Source of the DNA: Neisseria sicca
GTDB taxonomy: Bacteria; Pseudomonadota; Gammaproteobacteria; Burkholderiales; Neisseriaceae
Reading direction: 5' to 3'
Length of the DNA: 64,000 bases
NCBI RefSeq assembly: GCF_003044565.1
Contig: NZ_POXG01000002.1
Location: 1 to 64,000, forward strand
Shown: positions 11,166-16,174 of the stretch, piece by piece
How positions within the stretch are numbered: the first letter of the stretch is position 1
Layout: each line of letters begins with the position of its first letter
Position numbers and translations under genes: made by a program
The notes under the pieces: model-generated
The model's input: only the letters and a program-made list of their open reading frames with translations
The model's database searches: none
Told to the model about the DNA's origin: nothing

Positions 11166-12518
11166 ATGAAAGCACCCGAACTCCTCCTTCCCGCCGGCGG
11201 CCTCGAACGTATGCGCGCCGCCTACGACTACGGCGCAGACGCCGTTTATGCCGGCAGCCCGCGTTATTCCCTGCGCGCCCGCAACAACGAATTTGCGAAA
11301 CTCGACGTCCTCGAGCAAGGCATTAAAGAAGCGCACGAACGCAACAAAAAATTCTTTTTGACCGTCAACACCCTGCCGCACAATTCCAAACTCAAAACCT
11401 TCGTCACCGACATGGAGCCGCTGATTGCCATGAAACCCGACGCGCTGATTATGGCGGATCCGGGTTTGATTATGACCGTGCGCGAAAAATGGCCGGAAAT
11501 GCCGATCCACCTGTCCGTACAGGCGAACACCACCAACTACTGGGGCGTGAAATTCTGGCAGAACATCGGCGTTGAACGCATCATCCTGTCACGCGAATTG
11601 AGCATGGAAGAAATCGCCGAAATCCGCCAAGAATGCCCCGACATCGAACTCGAAGTCTTCATCCACGGCGCATTGTGCATCGCTTATTCAGGTCGTTGCC
11701 TGTTGTCAGGCTATTTCAACCACCGCGACCCCAACCAAGGTACCTGCACTAACTCCTGCCGCTGGGATTACAAAGTCCACAACGCCACTGAAAGCGATGC
11801 GGGCGACGCCCAGCTTCTGCAAGGCTTCAACTTTGAAAAAGCCCAAGAAGAAGCCAACCAAAACTTCGAAGGCATCAACGGTCAGAAACGCCACCCCTAC
11901 GCCGACAAAGTCTTCCTGATTGAAGAGTCCAACCGCCCAGGCGAAATGATGCCGATTATGGAAGACGAACACGGCACCTACATCATGAATTCCAAAGACC
12001 TGCGCGGCATTGAAGTGGTTGAGAAACTCGCCAAAATCGGCGTAGACAGCCTCAAAGTCGAAGGTCGCACCAAGTCGCTCTACTACGTCGCCCGCGTCGC
12101 CCAGTCCTACCGCAAAGCGATTGACGATGCCGTCGCAGGCCGTCCGTTCGACTACGGCTTATTGAGCGAACTCGAAGGCCTCGCCAACCGCGGTTACACT
12201 AGTGGCTTCCTCGAACGCCACCAAACCCAAGACTATCAAAACTACCTCAGCGGCCATTCCACCGCCAAACAAAGCCAATACGTCGGCCACGTTACTGAAA
12301 TCGACGCCGAAGGCTGGGCAACAGTGGAAGTCAAAAACCGCTTTGCCGTCGGCGACACCTTGGAAATCATCCATCCCGAAGGCAACCAAACCATTACGCT
12401 GGAACAAATGACCCGCAAAGGCGCAGCCGTCGAAGTCGCCCCGGGCAACGGCATCCAAGTCAAAATCCCGAATATGCAGGGCAAAGAAAAAGCCTTGTTG
12501 GCGCGGGTTATCAAATAA
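11166..12518 (+). CDS. yegQ: U32-family protein YegQ (TrhP), tRNA U34 hydroxylation
   Basis: A 450-aa U32 peptidase-family protein. The E. coli orthologue YegQ/TrhP takes part in prephenate-dependent 5-hydroxyuridine formation at tRNA position 34. The start ELLLPAGGLERMRAAYDYGADAVY and the central FIHGALCIAYSGRCLLSGYFNHRDPNQGTC with its cysteine cluster (continuing TNSCRWDY) are diagnostic. Length equals YegQ. A beta-barrel-like C-terminal domain (about residues 365-450) follows. An inverted DUS pair precedes the ATG and another terminates the gene. Confidence 0.93.
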   Translation: MKAPELLLPAGGLERMRAAYDYGADAVYAGSPRYSLRARNNEFAKLDVLEQGIKEAHERNKKFFLTVNTLPHNSKLKTFVTDMEPLIAMKPDALIMADPGLIMTVREKWPEMPIHLSVQANTTNYWGVKFWQNIGVERIILSRELSMEEIAEIRQECPDIELEVFIHGALCIAYSGRCLLSGYFNHRDPNQGTCTNSCRWDYKVHNATESDAGDAQLLQGFNFEKAQEEANQNFEGINGQKRHPYADKVFLIEESNRPGEMMPIMEDEHGTYIMNSKDLRGIEVVEKLAKIGVDSLKVEGRTKSLYYVARVAQSYRKAIDDAVAGRPFDYGLLSELEGLANRGYTSGFLERHQTQDYQNYLSGHSTAKQSQYVGHVTEIDAEGWATVEVKNRFAVGDTLEIIHPEGNQTITLEQMTRKGAAVEVAPGNGIQVKIPNMQGKEKALLARVIK

Positions 12519-12520
12519 TC

Positions 12521-12554
12521 AAAAGGTCGTCTGAAAATTTCCAGACGACCTTTT
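12521..12554 (+). terminator. Inverted DUS pair after yegQ
   Basis: AAAAGGTCGTCTG and CAGACGACCTTTT, a 13-bp stem with an 8-base loop, followed by T-rich sequence. Confidence 0.8.
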
Positions 12555-12574
12555 GTCTTTTGTTAAGGAATTGT

Positions 12575-12775
12575 ATGAACGAAGAAACCAAACAGGCGGC
12601 TCAGACCATAGGTCGTCTGAAACGTAAAGCCAGCGACGAAGAACGGCTGCAAGGCTGGCGCGAAACCTGCGCCGAACAAGTGTTAAGCGGCGAATTTATC
12701 CTGACCGCCAAGCTCAACGGCGCGGCTTATACCGAGGAAGAAGCCCATATGGTGGCGGAGCTTTTCGGCAAATAA
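12575..12775 (+). CDS. Small hypothetical protein
   Basis: A 66-aa acidic, probably helical protein without known family. The ATG follows TTAAGGAATTGT; a TTG further upstream lacks a suitable site. A DUS lies inside the gene and is read as GRLK. The TEEEAHMVAELFGK ending is a likely amphipathic helix. It stands between yegQ and the metN promoter. Confidence 0.6.
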   Translation: MNEETKQAAQTIGRLKRKASDEERLQGWRETCAEQVLSGEFILTAKLNGAAYTEEEAHMVAELFGK

Positions 12776-12817
12776 ACCGACAATCTGTTACTTTAAAATT
12801 ACAAATCATATCAAAAC

Positions 12818-12846
12818 TTGACAAAATTACCGATTTTGATTATAGT
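12818..12846 (+). promoter_or_regulatory. Sigma-70 promoter of the metN transcript
   Basis: TTGACA at 12818-12823, a 17-base spacer, and TATAGT at 12841-12846. The expected start is near 12853, about 10 bases before the candidate aptamer. Confidence 0.85.
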
Positions 12847-12859
12847 CGTATCTGAGTTA

Positions 12860-12982
12860 ACATTGCCGATTTGACACAGCTTGCGGGCATAAACAGCTAA
12901 AGCGTATTTTCATTTTCTGCTGTTTTTATTCCTTTCTTTATATCCAAGCCCGTTGTGTACAGCATCGGGCTTCTTTTTTTCC
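12860..12982 (+). promoter_or_regulatory. Candidate SAM-II-like riboswitch leader with terminator in front of metN
   Basis: The landmarks occur in the order expected for the SAM-II pseudoknot class: TTGCC (12863), GATTTG (12868), CTTGC (12880), GGGCA (12885) closing a stem with TGCC, TAAAC, then GCTAAAGCG (12896-12904). Loop GCTT can pair with the downstream AAGC. After it comes an intrinsic terminator: AAGCCCG (12946-12952), CGGGCTT (12966-12972) and seven T. AAACAGC can also pair with GCTGTTT (12919-12925), an alternative fold that uses the aptamer's 3' strand. The class assignment is from memory of the consensus. The terminator and the 150-base leader are plain. Confidence 0.55.
12946..12980 (+). 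terminator. Intrinsic terminator in the metN leader
   Basis: A 7-bp GC-rich stem AAGCCCG/CGGGCTT with a 13-base loop, then C and seven T. It ends 22 bases before the metN ATG and therefore acts as an attenuator for metN and metI. Confidence 0.8.
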
Positions 12983-13002
12983 GGAAGTATCAGGAAGTAT
13001 TT

Positions 13003-13740
13003 ATGATTATTTTGGACAACGTTTCCAAACATTACCAAACGCGCGACAAAACCCGTTTTGCCGCCGTCGAGCCGACCAGCCTCGAAATCCAAGACGGCGA
13101 AATCTTCGGTCTGATGGGCTATTCCGGCGCGGGCAAATCCACCCTGTTGCGCCTGATTAACCTGTTGGAACGTCCCGACAGCGGCAAGGTCAATGTGTGC
13201 GGACAAGAGCTGACCGCGCTCGATGCCGCTGCATTGCGTCAGGCGCGGCAGAATATCGGCATGGTGTTTCAGCAGTTCAATCTTTTGAGCAACCGCACCG
13301 TCGCCGACAATGTTGCCTTTCCTTTGGAAATCGCCGGATGGTCGTCTGAAAAAATCAAAGAACGTGTTAAAGAATGCCTTGAAATCGTCGGCTTGACCGA
13401 ACGCGCCGACCACTACCCCGCCCAGCTTTCCGGCGGACAAAAACAGCGCGTCGGCATCGCCCGCGCGCTCGCACCCAAACCCCAAGTCATCCTCGCCGAC
13501 GAACCCACTTCCGCCCTCGACCCCGCCACCACGCGCAGCGTCTTGGAATGTTTGGAAGACATCAACAAACGCTTCAACGTCACCATCGTCATCGTAACCC
13601 ACGAAATGAGCGTCATCCGTCGCCTGTGCGACCGCGCCGCCCTTTTGGATAAAGGAAAAGTGGTGGAAATCGTCGAAGTACACGGCAACCAAATCCACGC
13701 CCAATCCGAAATCGGGCGCGAACTGATTCGGGAGGACTGA
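13003..13740 (+). CDS. metN: Methionine ABC transporter ATP-binding protein
   Basis: A 245-aa ATPase of the MetNIQ importer. Walker A GYSGAGKST (residues 39-47), Q-loop VFQQFNLL, signature LSGGQKQR, Walker B VILADEPTSALD and the switch His in THEM are all intact. The E. coli protein is about 343 residues because of a C-terminal methionine-binding domain for trans-inhibition; here the protein stops after the nucleotide-binding domain, as known for meningococcal MetN. The ATG follows CAGGAAG. A DUS lies inside the gene, read as WSSEK. Confidence 0.95.
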   Translation: MIILDNVSKHYQTRDKTRFAAVEPTSLEIQDGEIFGLMGYSGAGKSTLLRLINLLERPDSGKVNVCGQELTALDAAALRQARQNIGMVFQQFNLLSNRTVADNVAFPLEIAGWSSEKIKERVKECLEIVGLTERADHYPAQLSGGQKQRVGIARALAPKPQVILADEPTSALDPATTRSVLECLEDINKRFNVTIVIVTHEMSVIRRLCDRAALLDKGKVVEIVEVHGNQIHAQSEIGRELIRED

Positions 13741-13741
13741 T

Positions 13742-14428
13742 ATGGCAGACTTAACATTCGAACAAGCCGTTTCTACCATCGTCGGTATGAAAGACGAAAT
13801 CATCCGCGCTTTGGGCGAAACCTTCGTCATGGTCGGGTTGTCCACCACGTTTGCCGTCATCTTCGGCACGCTGCTAGGCGTCTTGCTTTTCGTGACTTCC
13901 AGCCGCCAGCTTCATTACAACAAGCCGGTGAATTTCCTGCTCGACAACTTAGTCAACCTGATGCGCGCCTTCCCCTTCGTCATCCTGATGATTGCCATGA
14001 TACCCGCGACCCGCGCCATCGTCGGTAGCACCATCGGCCCGATTGCCGCCTCGCTGGTATTGAGCGTGTCCGGCCTGTTTTACTTCGCCCGACTGGTGGA
14101 ACAAAACCTGCGCGAAGTCCCCAAAGGCGTGATTGAAGCCGCCACCGCCATGGGCGCCTCGCCGCTTGCCATCGTCCGCAAAGTCCTCTTGAACGAAGCC
14201 CGCGCGGGCATGGTTTCCAGCATCACCGTCCTCGCCATCGGCCTGCTCTCATACAGCGCGGCGGCAGGCATGATAGGCGGCGGCGGCTTGGGCGACCTTG
14301 CCATCCGCTACGGCTACTACCGCTATCAAACCGAAGTCATCATCTTCATCGTCGCCCTCCTCGTGCTGCTCGTTATCCTGATTCAAAGCACCGGCAACGC
14401 ATTGGCGCGGAAATTGGACAAACGTTAA
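13742..14428 (+). CDS. metI: Methionine ABC transporter permease
   Basis: A 228-aa inner membrane permease, two bases after metN. It has five hydrophobic segments and the coupling loop EAATAMGASPLAIVRKVLLNEARAGM, typical of MetI. It pairs with MetN and receives methionine from the lipoprotein MetQ. An inverted DUS terminator follows, so the two genes downstream may be expressed separately or by read-through. Confidence 0.95.
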   Translation: MADLTFEQAVSTIVGMKDEIIRALGETFVMVGLSTTFAVIFGTLLGVLLFVTSSRQLHYNKPVNFLLDNLVNLMRAFPFVILMIAMIPATRAIVGSTIGPIAASLVLSVSGLFYFARLVEQNLREVPKGVIEAATAMGASPLAIVRKVLLNEARAGMVSSITVLAIGLLSYSAAAGMIGGGGLGDLAIRYGYYRYQTEVIIFIVALLVLLVILIQSTGNALARKLDKR

Positions 14429-14445: not shown

Positions 14446-14490
14446 AAGGTCGTCTGAAAATACACCTGATGCATTTTCAGACGACCTTTT
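14446..14490 (+). terminator. Inverted DUS pair after metI
   Basis: AAGGTCGTCTGAAAAT and ATTTTCAGACGACCTT with a 13-base loop and a short T-run. Confidence 0.8.
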
Positions 14491-14506
14491 GAGTGAAAAA
14501 TACAAC

Positions 14507-15151
14507 ATGAAATCCGCCAAAAAAATTCTAATTGCCATTTATTTAGTCAATATCGGCAATATCCTTTGGTACTTTATTGGCCCCATGAACCATATGCCGA
14601 AAATATGGTACATAGGGCTGAGTATCGGCATCTTTCTTGCCCAACTCGTCATCTTGGAAAAATTAGAACACCCGCCCTCCGACGTCAACGCGCACAACAG
14701 CAAAATGCTGCGTAACGATATGGGTTTCTTCATTTTATTGTGTGTCGGGCTATTGGCTGTCTTTATGATATGGTCCCTTATCGCTTCCCCTGTCCCCATT
14801 TGGGGCATCCTTTCATTTGACGATATGGTTTCCATAGGGGAAATGAACGGATCAATTGGCACGATGGACATCGATGAAATGGGCGAAATCAGCGAGCCGG
14901 ATGAAAGTGCCATGATGGCTGAAGACTATGGTGATGAAATGGACGGACACGCCGTAATAGACGAAACAGATGAAATGTATGAAAGTCCCGATACCGCCTT
15001 TGATGTTTCTCCGTTCGCCACCTCGTTAGATTGGCTTAAAATCATCTCAGCCCTGACTTTTAAAGCAGGATTGATTTGGCTGTGTTACCGTTCCGTCAAA
15101 GGGCTGTACTTCACCATAAAAAACCGTCCCGTTTCCCATAAATGGATTTAA
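14507..15151 (+). CDS. Membrane protein with Met-rich acidic loop, inside the metNIQ locus
   Basis: A 214-aa protein with four predicted membrane segments (about residues 4-25, 33-50, 69-92 and 166-190). Between the third and fourth is a roughly 75-residue hydrophilic loop rich in Asp, Glu and Met (about nine Met), with pieces such as TMDIDEMGEISE and SAMMAEDYGDEMDG. I do not recognise a family. I chose the ATG, although an upstream TTG would add six residues; neither has a strong ribosome site. Its position between metI and metQ suggests a link to methionine uptake or Met-rich metal binding, which is only an inference. Confidence 0.75.
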   Translation: MKSAKKILIAIYLVNIGNILWYFIGPMNHMPKIWYIGLSIGIFLAQLVILEKLEHPPSDVNAHNSKMLRNDMGFFILLCVGLLAVFMIWSLIASPVPIWGILSFDDMVSIGEMNGSIGTMDIDEMGEISEPDESAMMAEDYGDEMDGHAVIDETDEMYESPDTAFDVSPFATSLDWLKIISALTFKAGLIWLCYRSVKGLYFTIKNRPVSHKWI

Positions 15152-15217: not shown

Positions 15218-16174
15218 ATGCAGACAAACACCTTATTCAAAACCCTTTCCGCCGCCGCGCTCGCCGTAGTACTCGCAGCCTGCGGCGGCCAAAAAGACGG
15301 CACACCTGCAGCATCCGCCGCATCGCCTGCCGCCGACAATGGCGCGAAAAAAGAAATCGTCTTCGGCACGACCGTCGGCGACTTCGGCGACATGGTCAAA
15401 GACCAAATCAAACCTGCGCTGGAGAAAAAAGGTTATACCGTCAAATTGGTCGAATTCACCGACTACGTCCGCCCCAACCTCGCTTTGGCAGAAGGCGAGC
15501 TGGACATCAATATTTTCCAACACAAGCCTTATTTGGACGACTTCAAAAAAGAACACAAATTAGACATCACCGAAGTCTTCCAAGTGCCGACTGCGCCTTT
15601 AGGTCTGTATCCGGGCAAACTGAAATCGCTGGACGAAGTCAAAGACGGCAGCAGCGTTTCCGCGCCTAACGACCCGTCCAACTTCGCCCGCGCGCTGGTA
15701 ATGTTGAACGAATTGGGCTGGGTTAAGTTGAAAGACGGTGTGAATCCGCTGACCGCTTCCAAAGCCGACATCGCCGAAAACCTGAAAAACATCAAAATCG
15801 TAGAACTTGAAGCCGCACAACTGCCGCGCAGCCGCGCCGACGTCGATTTCGCCGTTGTTAACGGCAACTACGCCATGAGCAGCGGCATGAAGCTGACCGA
15901 ATCCCTGTTCCAAGAACCGAGCTTCGCCTACGTCAACTGGGCAGCCGTCAAAACCGCCGACAAAGACAGCCAATGGCTCAAAGACGTAACCGAAGCCTAC
16001 AACTCCGACGAGTTCAAAGCCTACGCGCGCCAACGCTTCGCAGGTTACAAATACCCTGCCGCCTGGGGTGAAAACGCAGCAGCCGGTGCGAAAGCCGAAG
16101 CCGCTTCTACCGCTTCGGCAGCAAGTGCCACAGCAGCCTCCGCAGCCAACTCCGGTGCTTCCGCAGCAAAATAA
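15218..16174 (+). CDS. metQ: Methionine-binding lipoprotein
   Basis: A 318-aa substrate-binding lipoprotein of the MetNIQ importer (NlpA family). Lipobox LAAC with Cys22, then the fold beginning EIVFGTTVGDFGDMVKDQIKPALEKKG, and the NIFQHKPYLD and SAPNDPSNFARAL ligand-site segments. The meningococcal homologue is the surface antigen GNA1946. After the domain ends (about residue 285) there is an Ala/Ser-rich tail of about 30 residues without fixed structure, longer than I expect for the family and possibly O-glycosylated. ATG after CAGGAG. Confidence 0.95.
   Translation: MQTNTLFKTLSAAALAVVLAACGGQKDGTPAASAASPAADNGAKKEIVFGTTVGDFGDMVKDQIKPALEKKGYTVKLVEFTDYVRPNLALAEGELDINIFQHKPYLDDFKKEHKLDITEVFQVPTAPLGLYPGKLKSLDEVKDGSSVSAPNDPSNFARALVMLNELGWVKLKDGVNPLTASKADIAENLKNIKIVELEAAQLPRSRADVDFAVVNGNYAMSSGMKLTESLFQEPSFAYVNWAAVKTADKDSQWLKDVTEAYNSDEFKAYARQRFAGYKYPAAWGENAAAGAKAEAASTASAASATAASAANSGASAAK

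Follow-up and report, generated by a model that had tools for sequence, protein, structure and literature searches.

A compact SAM-II-type leader with a predicted attenuator ahead of metN in Neisseria sicca

The metNIQ locus and its leader

The window analysed here, a stretch of 64,000 nucleotides from Neisseria sicca, carries genes for a methionine importer (metN, metI and metQ) behind a leader in which we found a promoter-like sequence, a compact aptamer core and a predicted intrinsic terminator. "Family" and "order" denote the window's own taxonomic groups throughout, the family sample comprising 83 genomes from 12 genera. Two covariance models were used to score cores: R1, built from 34 distinct family cores, and R2, built from 46 leaders of other families, none of which stands before metN. 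The features are:

12818..12846, + strand: promoter-like sequence, TTGACA (12818-12823) and TATAGT (12841-12846)
12862..12908, + strand: compact SAM-II-type aptamer core, 47 bases (R2 41.8 bits, E 7.5e-10; R1 70.1 bits, the R1 training set having included the window sequence)
12864..12867, + strand: P1 5' strand TGCC, partner 12886-12889 (covariation at pair 4)
12868..12879, + strand: L1 with GAUUU (from sequence; GATTTG at 12868-12873)
12880..12884, + strand: P2 5' strand CUUGC (CTTGC; inner pairs invariant, outer pair 12876:12905 covarying across relatives)
12886..12889, + strand: P1 3' strand GGCA (covariation at pair 4)
12890..12895, + strand: shortened L3, UAAACA (from loop-length comparison; TAAAC at 12890-12894)
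12896..12905, + strand: P2 3' strand GCUAAAGCGU (from P2 covariation; GCTAAAG at 12896-12902)
12872..12888, + strand: predicted antiterminator, 5' side (minimum-energy fold of 12853-12962; complementarity in relatives)
12948..12961, + strand: predicted antiterminator, 3' side, overlapping the terminator 5' arm (minimum-energy fold; complementarity in relatives)
12946..12980, + strand: predicted intrinsic terminator, stem 12946-12972, T-rich tail to 12980
13003..13740, + strand: metN, methionine ABC transporter ATPase, ATG at 13003 (best NCBIfam match TIGR02314 MetN, 297.4 bits)
13742..14428, + strand: metI, permease (best NCBIfam match NF008049, 182.7 bits, below the cut-off of 212)
15218..16174, + strand: metQ, binding lipoprotein (best NCBIfam match NF008285, 183.9 bits, below the cut-off of 374)

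The metN frame scored below the curated cut-off of TIGR02314 (499.7 bits) and matched positions 1-242 of the 343 in that profile; the window's MetN is 245 amino acids long and the C-terminal part of the profile is absent from it. In E. coli this C-terminal part is the methionine sensor. Between metI and metQ lies a 220-amino-acid frame (14489-15151) with an acidic, Met-rich stretch, for which no NCBIfam match was found.

The leader had at first been described as starting from a textbook promoter. Both hexamers are present, with 11 of 12 matches and a spacer of 17, but a single match of this kind is at chance level for the region (1 found in the region scan; shuffle mean 0.7, sd 0.8). Transcription would start near 12853.

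The sequence blocks that had been picked out as landmarks of SAM-II (GATTTG, CTTGC, TAAAC and GCTAAAG) were all found where they had been placed, and the TGCC/GGCA stem proposed with them is P1 (12864-12867 with 12886-12889), in which pair 4 covaries. GCTT (12879-12882) and AAGC (12900-12903), proposed as a possible pseudoknot, are both present. A pseudoknot, P2, does covary, but its register differs: UUGC pairs with the GC and AA of GCUAAA, with the U looped out, and the outer pairs are 12877:12904 and 12876:12905. This register fits the pocket described for SAM-V and SAM-II (PMC6061858). The outer P2 bases 12876-12877 are located inside L1; in solved relatives the GAUUU of this loop is reported to supply the third strand of the SAM pocket (PMC6061858). 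The pocket letters GAUUU, CUUGC and GCUAAA are all present in the window. CCGATTT and CAGCTTGCGGG were kept in 46 of the 47 loci found by BLAST, and GCTAAA was found in 33 of 36 parsed family aptamers, a conservation which is partly built in since the aptamer parse partly requires GATTT, TTGC and GCTAA. Four loci (L132, L134, L135 and L137) have GCTAAG where the others have GCTAAAG.

Conservation and class of the aptamer core

A DNA search with the leader found matches (E up to 0.01) in 47 of the 83 family genomes and 7 of the 12 genera. Where a match covered no more than approximately 45 bases of the core, identity was 87-100%. The match in G075, among these 47, lies elsewhere in its genome and is without the core. 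R1, which was built from these same loci, matched 46 of the 83 genomes at 37.6 bits or more, with the next match at 24.6 bits. A MetN-like start was found downstream of the core in 46 of 46 loci, 74-213 nt after CGGG, the distance from core to metN start being about 100 nt in the window. A comparison of metN leaders among relatives had been proposed as a check, and the core stands before metN in 46 of 83 family genomes. Eight genomes of the genus were without the core: in five of these metN appeared by eye to lie directly behind another reading frame, a leader being absent (L257-L261), one (L262, genome G012) had a metN leader with a terminator-like GCCCG hairpin from which the aptamer was absent, and in two the search for metN gave no match at E up to 1e-60.

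In the scan with Rfam SAM models both SAM-II (RF01726) and SAM_alpha (RF00521) sit on the core, but at 16.4 bits (cut-off 44, E 5.2) and 15.3 bits (cut-off 36, E 1.6) respectively, below cut-offs which are detection thresholds and not structural features. Of 7 scanned family loci, 6 had a SAM_alpha match on the core; these matches scored 19.1-22.9 bits, also below the cut-off. RF01726 had a match at E up to 10 in 80 of the 83 family genomes and was over its cut-off in none (0/83); these matches were dismissed as noise, as none of the ten returned loci lay at a metN core. Other Rfam matches in the region (suhB at 22.9 bits, RcsR1, VrrA, Trp_leader and others) were all below cut-off. The Rfam library contains a SAM-V model; the scan of 12300-13600 gave 12 matches at E 10 or lower, none of them to SAM-V.

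The independent model R2 found the core as its best match in the 64-kb window (41.8 bits, E 7.5e-10), the next match scoring 11.7 bits. It matched 51 of 51 chosen loci; 42 of these were metN leaders, and the other 9, taken from the 20 alpha loci, are over the Rfam cut-off. The weakest of the 51 was L137 at 18.9 bits, and the alpha loci scored 24.4-44.4 bits. The gap between the family core and Rfam SAM-II is closed because intermediate sequences of the order match both: for 10 of 10 returned order loci which Rfam accepts, R1 gave a match in the same place, with scores of 16.1-38.4 bits. R1 had a match at E up to 0.1 in 310 of 399 order genomes, chance matches included. The SAM_alpha cut-off was passed in 26 of 150 order genomes, and SAM-II in beta-proteobacteria had been noted in 2007 (PMC2258182), so SAM-II, which the preliminary description called best known from alphaproteobacteria, is not restricted to them. 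In the phylum sample SAM_alpha passed in 42 of 249 genomes and R1 matched in 36 of 249 at E up to 0.01, the two models coinciding at nine places (G125, G212, G249, G477, G485, G510, G515, G622 and G703); the Rfam cut-off is passed at two of these, G515 and G622. R1 alone found 2 of the 20 alpha loci in place (19.8 and 11.6 bits). In these model comparisons the metN type is distant from the alpha type and joined to it through beta leaders.

For covariation, positions were numbered such that CUUGC is 18-22 and GCUAAAG is 45-51. Once identical sequences had been collapsed, there remained 36 from the family, 86 others from the order and 14 alpha ones, the last drawn from 20 alpha loci. The counts use 31, 85 and 14 of these, the rest failing the rule on L3 length or GCTAAA. 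The parse omits L137 (P1 under 4 pairs by rule) and misreads L133 and L233 (second GCTAA). P1 pairs 1-4 were standard in 116/116 sequences, and pairs 4, 5 and 6 lay above all 1000 shuffles (116 sequences), in tests which leave shared ancestry in place. Pair 4 was C-G in 99 sequences, U-A in 15, U-G in 1 and G-C in 1 (0/1000 shuffles); for the family alone (n = 31) it was still above the shuffles (C-G 20, U-A 10, U-G 1), with pairs 5 and 6 at chance, and pair 4 covaried outside the family as well. The inner pairs of P2 are invariant, and constant by construction as the parse requires TTGC and GCTAA. The outer pair 14:54 (12876:12905) was A-U in 55 sequences, U-A in 20, U-G in 11 and C-G in 8, and was standard in 97 of 116 vs 55.8 by shuffle (0/1000), while the neighbouring registers 14:53, 13:54, 15:54 and 14:55 were at chance. 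Within the family it was A-U in 30 of 31; because the outer pair hardly varies there, the pseudoknot covariation, which had been named as a possible support, comes from relatives outside the window's family. Alignment A4 gave a covariation score of 0.122 vs 0.057, reached by 0/500 shuffles and exceeding every slid version; two of its five measures (pairs changed on both sides and further pair types) were not above shuffles. Here, too, shuffling leaves shared ancestry in place. Homology via intermediates, covariation of P1 and the outer P2 pair, and the methionine genes downstream together are strong evidence for the SAM-II class first suggested for this leader.

The window's aptamer has an L3 of 6 nt and a P1 of 4 pairs. 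Among the 36 parsed family aptamers, 34 have an L3 of 5-9 nt; the exceptions are L133, which was misparsed, and L136, which has a 113-nt insertion. In other families all 11 distinct metN aptamers, including that of Chromobacterium sphagni (L012), have an L3 of 3-7 nt. L3 was at least 10 nt in 73 of 75 order aptamers not before metN (exceptions: L233, misparsed, and L247, in which P1 was read as 8 pairs) and 11 or 12 nt in 14/14 parsed alpha aptamers. P1 was likewise short in the family, at 4 or 5 pairs in 34 of 36 aptamers vs 6 in 13 of 14 alpha ones. L137, which was not parsed, has a longer L3. Judged by sequence, the metN type is a structural subtype of SAM-II, with an L3 of 3-9 nt vs mostly 11-12 elsewhere. 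L3 would span P1 in this kind of pseudoknot, and because of this P1 and L3 are likely to have shrunk together. In L136 (2009-2163) the insertion in L3, approximately 110 bases with TATAG/CTATA ends, looks like a small mobile repeat.

Predicted attenuation and its alternatives

Ahead of metN, where a strong terminator had been reported, 12946-12972 is predicted to form a hairpin of -14.5 kcal/mol, an energy matched by 0 of 200 shuffles. This hairpin supports the proposal that an attenuator follows the aptamer, although a simple terminator scan did not list it. The best fold of 12853-12962, the leader before the hairpin 3' arm, pairs 12872-12888 with 12948-12961 at -21 kcal/mol, an energy not beyond chance (z -0.96, 31/200 shuffles as good). 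The best fold of the longer leader retains this pairing and adds CCGAU with AUCGG of the hairpin 3' arm. Across 49 distinct leaders the median energy was -16.0 kcal/mol for the antiterminator vs -15.1 for the terminator, the antiterminator being the stronger in 30 of the 49; in 10 of the 49 rows, 2 or fewer of 200 shuffles were as good. For L131 and L168 the hairpin chosen in this survey is an unlikely one.

A one-base mismatch above the GCCCG/CGGGC stem persists in 31 of 37 distinct family terminators. On its 5' side stands T or C, either of which is able to pair with an aptamer G, and on its 3' side T in 29 of 31. A mismatch retained in this way suggests that the terminator has another pairing partner. 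In five of the 37 (L115, L123, L125, L126 and L133) the stem is GCCCA without the mismatch, and the antiterminators are weaker. The one variable aptamer base of the antiterminator was compatible wherever it could be read (28 of 28 rows; the other 21 of the 49 were unreadable), with only one U-A (L116), too few for significance. The pairing of 12872-12888 with 12948-12961 is the most likely antiterminator predicted here. The preliminary description had instead named AAACAGC (12891-12897) and GCTGTTT (12919-12925). Both are present in the window, but their pairing is not conserved: at least 6 contiguous pairs were found in 18 of 37 distinct leaders, none of them with 10 or fewer of 200 shuffles as good, and it was rejected as the main switch. 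In the window's close kin, where it is part of the fold, this pairing may still contribute.

The antiterminator would draw on bases 12872-12888, and with them on some of the P2 5' strand and the greater part of the P1 3' strand, so that a closed aptamer and a read-through fold would be mutually exclusive. At low SAM the antiterminator would form, polymerase would read through and the methionine importer would be made; at high SAM, SAM as the presumed ligand would close P1 and P2, the hairpin would form and transcription in the cell would stop near 12980. Such OFF logic has been proposed for terminator-bearing SAM-II leaders (PMC1273637, PMC2258182), and a similar antiterminator role was guessed for the metXZ element by Leyn et al. 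2014 (PMC4239095). We have considerable confidence in the reading that the leader is a compact SAM-II relative with a terminator, in which SAM binding would close the aptamer and turn metN off and, without SAM, the aptamer strands would pair with the hairpin and allow read-through. The leader appears to be a new, compact, metN-linked variant of SAM-II, the evidence being strong for the class, good for the terminator and moderate for the exact antiterminator.

Other explanations were considered. An aptamer derived from SAM-II might sense a different ligand (SAH, methionine or another SAM relative) and control metN by attenuation. The shortening of P1 and L3 would be consistent with this, as would the GCTAAG of L132, L134, L135 and L137, which adjoins the base reported to contact the amino-acid end of SAM in SAM-V (PMC6061858), and a SAM aptamer variant which senses spermidine has been described (PMC10853860). 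However, the window and 33 of 36 parsed family aptamers retain the pocket letters GATTT, CTTGC and GCTAAA (GATTT, TTGC and GCTAA being partly required by the parse), and we consider a change of ligand improbable. Somewhat less probable again is that the aptamer acts on metN translation, with the hairpin constitutive or unrelated. This would agree with the best-studied SAM-II and SAM-V RNAs, which are thought to be translational (PMC9373788, PMC6061858), but the metN start lies about 100 nt past the core (74-213 nt after CGGG in 46 loci) with a terminator-like hairpin between them, and the minimum-energy fold joins aptamer and hairpin.

An attenuator driven by a leader peptide and the ribosome would also place a terminator-like hairpin ahead of the gene without calling on a ligand. 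A search of 12853-13002 with ATG, GTG and TTG starts gave frames of 3, 9, 3 and 17 codons without internal methionine codons, besides one frame in phase with metN, and the conserved core is RNA-like, with pairs which covary; we therefore regard a leader peptide as very unlikely. That the likeness to SAM-II is a chance match would suit the Rfam E values taken alone (5.2 for SAM-II, 1.6 for SAM_alpha), but scarcely the E value of 7.5e-10 from the independent R2, the recurrence in 46 of 83 genomes or the coincidence of R1 and Rfam in other families, and of these explanations it is the one we find hardest to credit; within the reach of computation, the R2 result refutes it.

Related leaders and known systems

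A SAM-I/IV match was found before metK in the window's own genome (L299:1200-1309, 41.9 bits, cut-off 41.1); the scores were 45.4 bits in L300 and 31.4 bits, below cut-off, in L302. A SAM riboswitch before metK was reported in a gonococcal study (PMC5399841). With a SAM-II-type core before metN and a SAM-I/IV match before metK, it is therefore likely that two SAM riboswitch classes exist in one genome. We lean, less firmly than for the switch itself, towards a joint picture: a metN-specific compact SAM-II subclass in which P1 and L3 shortened together and the ligand-binding strands double as antiterminator, a genus which runs the unrelated classes SAM-I/IV (metK) and SAM-II (metN), and a SAM-II lineage that also includes the metXZ element and RF02424. 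The leader is a candidate regulator for metNIQ, one which Leyn et al. 2014 (PMC4239095) report having sought in beta-proteobacteria without success. The shortened P1 and L3 also let the minimum size of the SAM-II fold be tested.

Six reference proteins were compared with 95 order loci, certain of which overlap. The best protein match anywhere in the locus was metZ in 39, metX in 20, metN in 17, a MATE transporter in 6, metH in 3 and metK in 3, with none in 7. NCBIfam names over cut-off support the metZ, metX, metK and MATE representatives; for metH the representative is a fragment. SAM-II-type matches stand before metK in L199 and L201 and before metH in L221, L227 and L234, all in other families of the order, and in L231 a threonine ammonia-lyase gene (228-1433) lies behind a SAM-II-type R1 match of 35.6 bits. 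Tandem R1 matches on one strand were seen in L198, L210, L213, L214, L215, L216 and L241, the second scoring 12.9-29.4 bits, with a MATE-family gene downstream in five of them (L198, L210 and L213-L215). A short frame, ADL(I/M)DNLRGA, runs over the second tandem copy in L198 and L241; this copy may be coding, or both coding and RNA.

Our literature search found no report of SAM-II before metN, most subscription papers being outside its coverage. The original description of SAM-II (Corbino 2005, PMC1273637) names Bordetella in its alignment legend and lists a small number of occurrences outside alpha-proteobacteria, and a scan with Rfam models by Leyn 2014 (PMC4239095) is reported to have placed SAM_alpha only in two alpha orders, describing metXZ as a new element. 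That element, a pseudoknot and terminator before metX and metZ in beta-proteobacteria for which six conserved sequence regions are described, was not identified as SAM-II by its authors. Compared here by description and gene context, it likely belongs to the same lineage as the SAM-II-type relatives we found, which stand mostly before metZ and metX; gene context agrees with this. RF02424 (Bp2_287, the Burkholderia sRNA Bp2_Cand287_SIPHT) is filed as an sRNA on the strand opposite to the metZ leader, although the suggestion of its authors was that it acts in cis in methionine metabolism (PMC3521395). A score of 203.9 bits was obtained for it in L232 (266-438, minus strand), where the metZ leader on the opposite strand has an R1 match of 39.5 bits (301-361, plus). 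RF02424 may thus represent a leader of SAM-II type that was assigned to the wrong strand. Weak matches to RF02424, antisense to the core, also occur in 5 of 7 scanned family loci.

SAM-V has a pocket closely similar to that of SAM-II and, according to Huang and Lilley 2018 (PMC6061858), acts on translation; its model was not among the Rfam matches of the window region. The SAM-II riboswitch before metZ in Sinorhizobium meliloti (PMC9373788) shares with the present leader a predicted termination upstream of a methionine gene, but is alpha-proteobacterial and was tested in cells, whereas the metN leader is known here from sequence alone. With SAM-II as first described (RF00521, RF01726; PMC1273637) the leader shares P1 and P2, the order GAUUU, CUUGC, GCUAAA, a predicted terminator downstream and an association with methionine genes. 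It differs from the alpha members in its L3 (3-9 nt vs 11-12 nt in 14/14), its P1 (mostly 4-5 pairs vs 6), its place before metN and its scores below the Rfam cut-offs.
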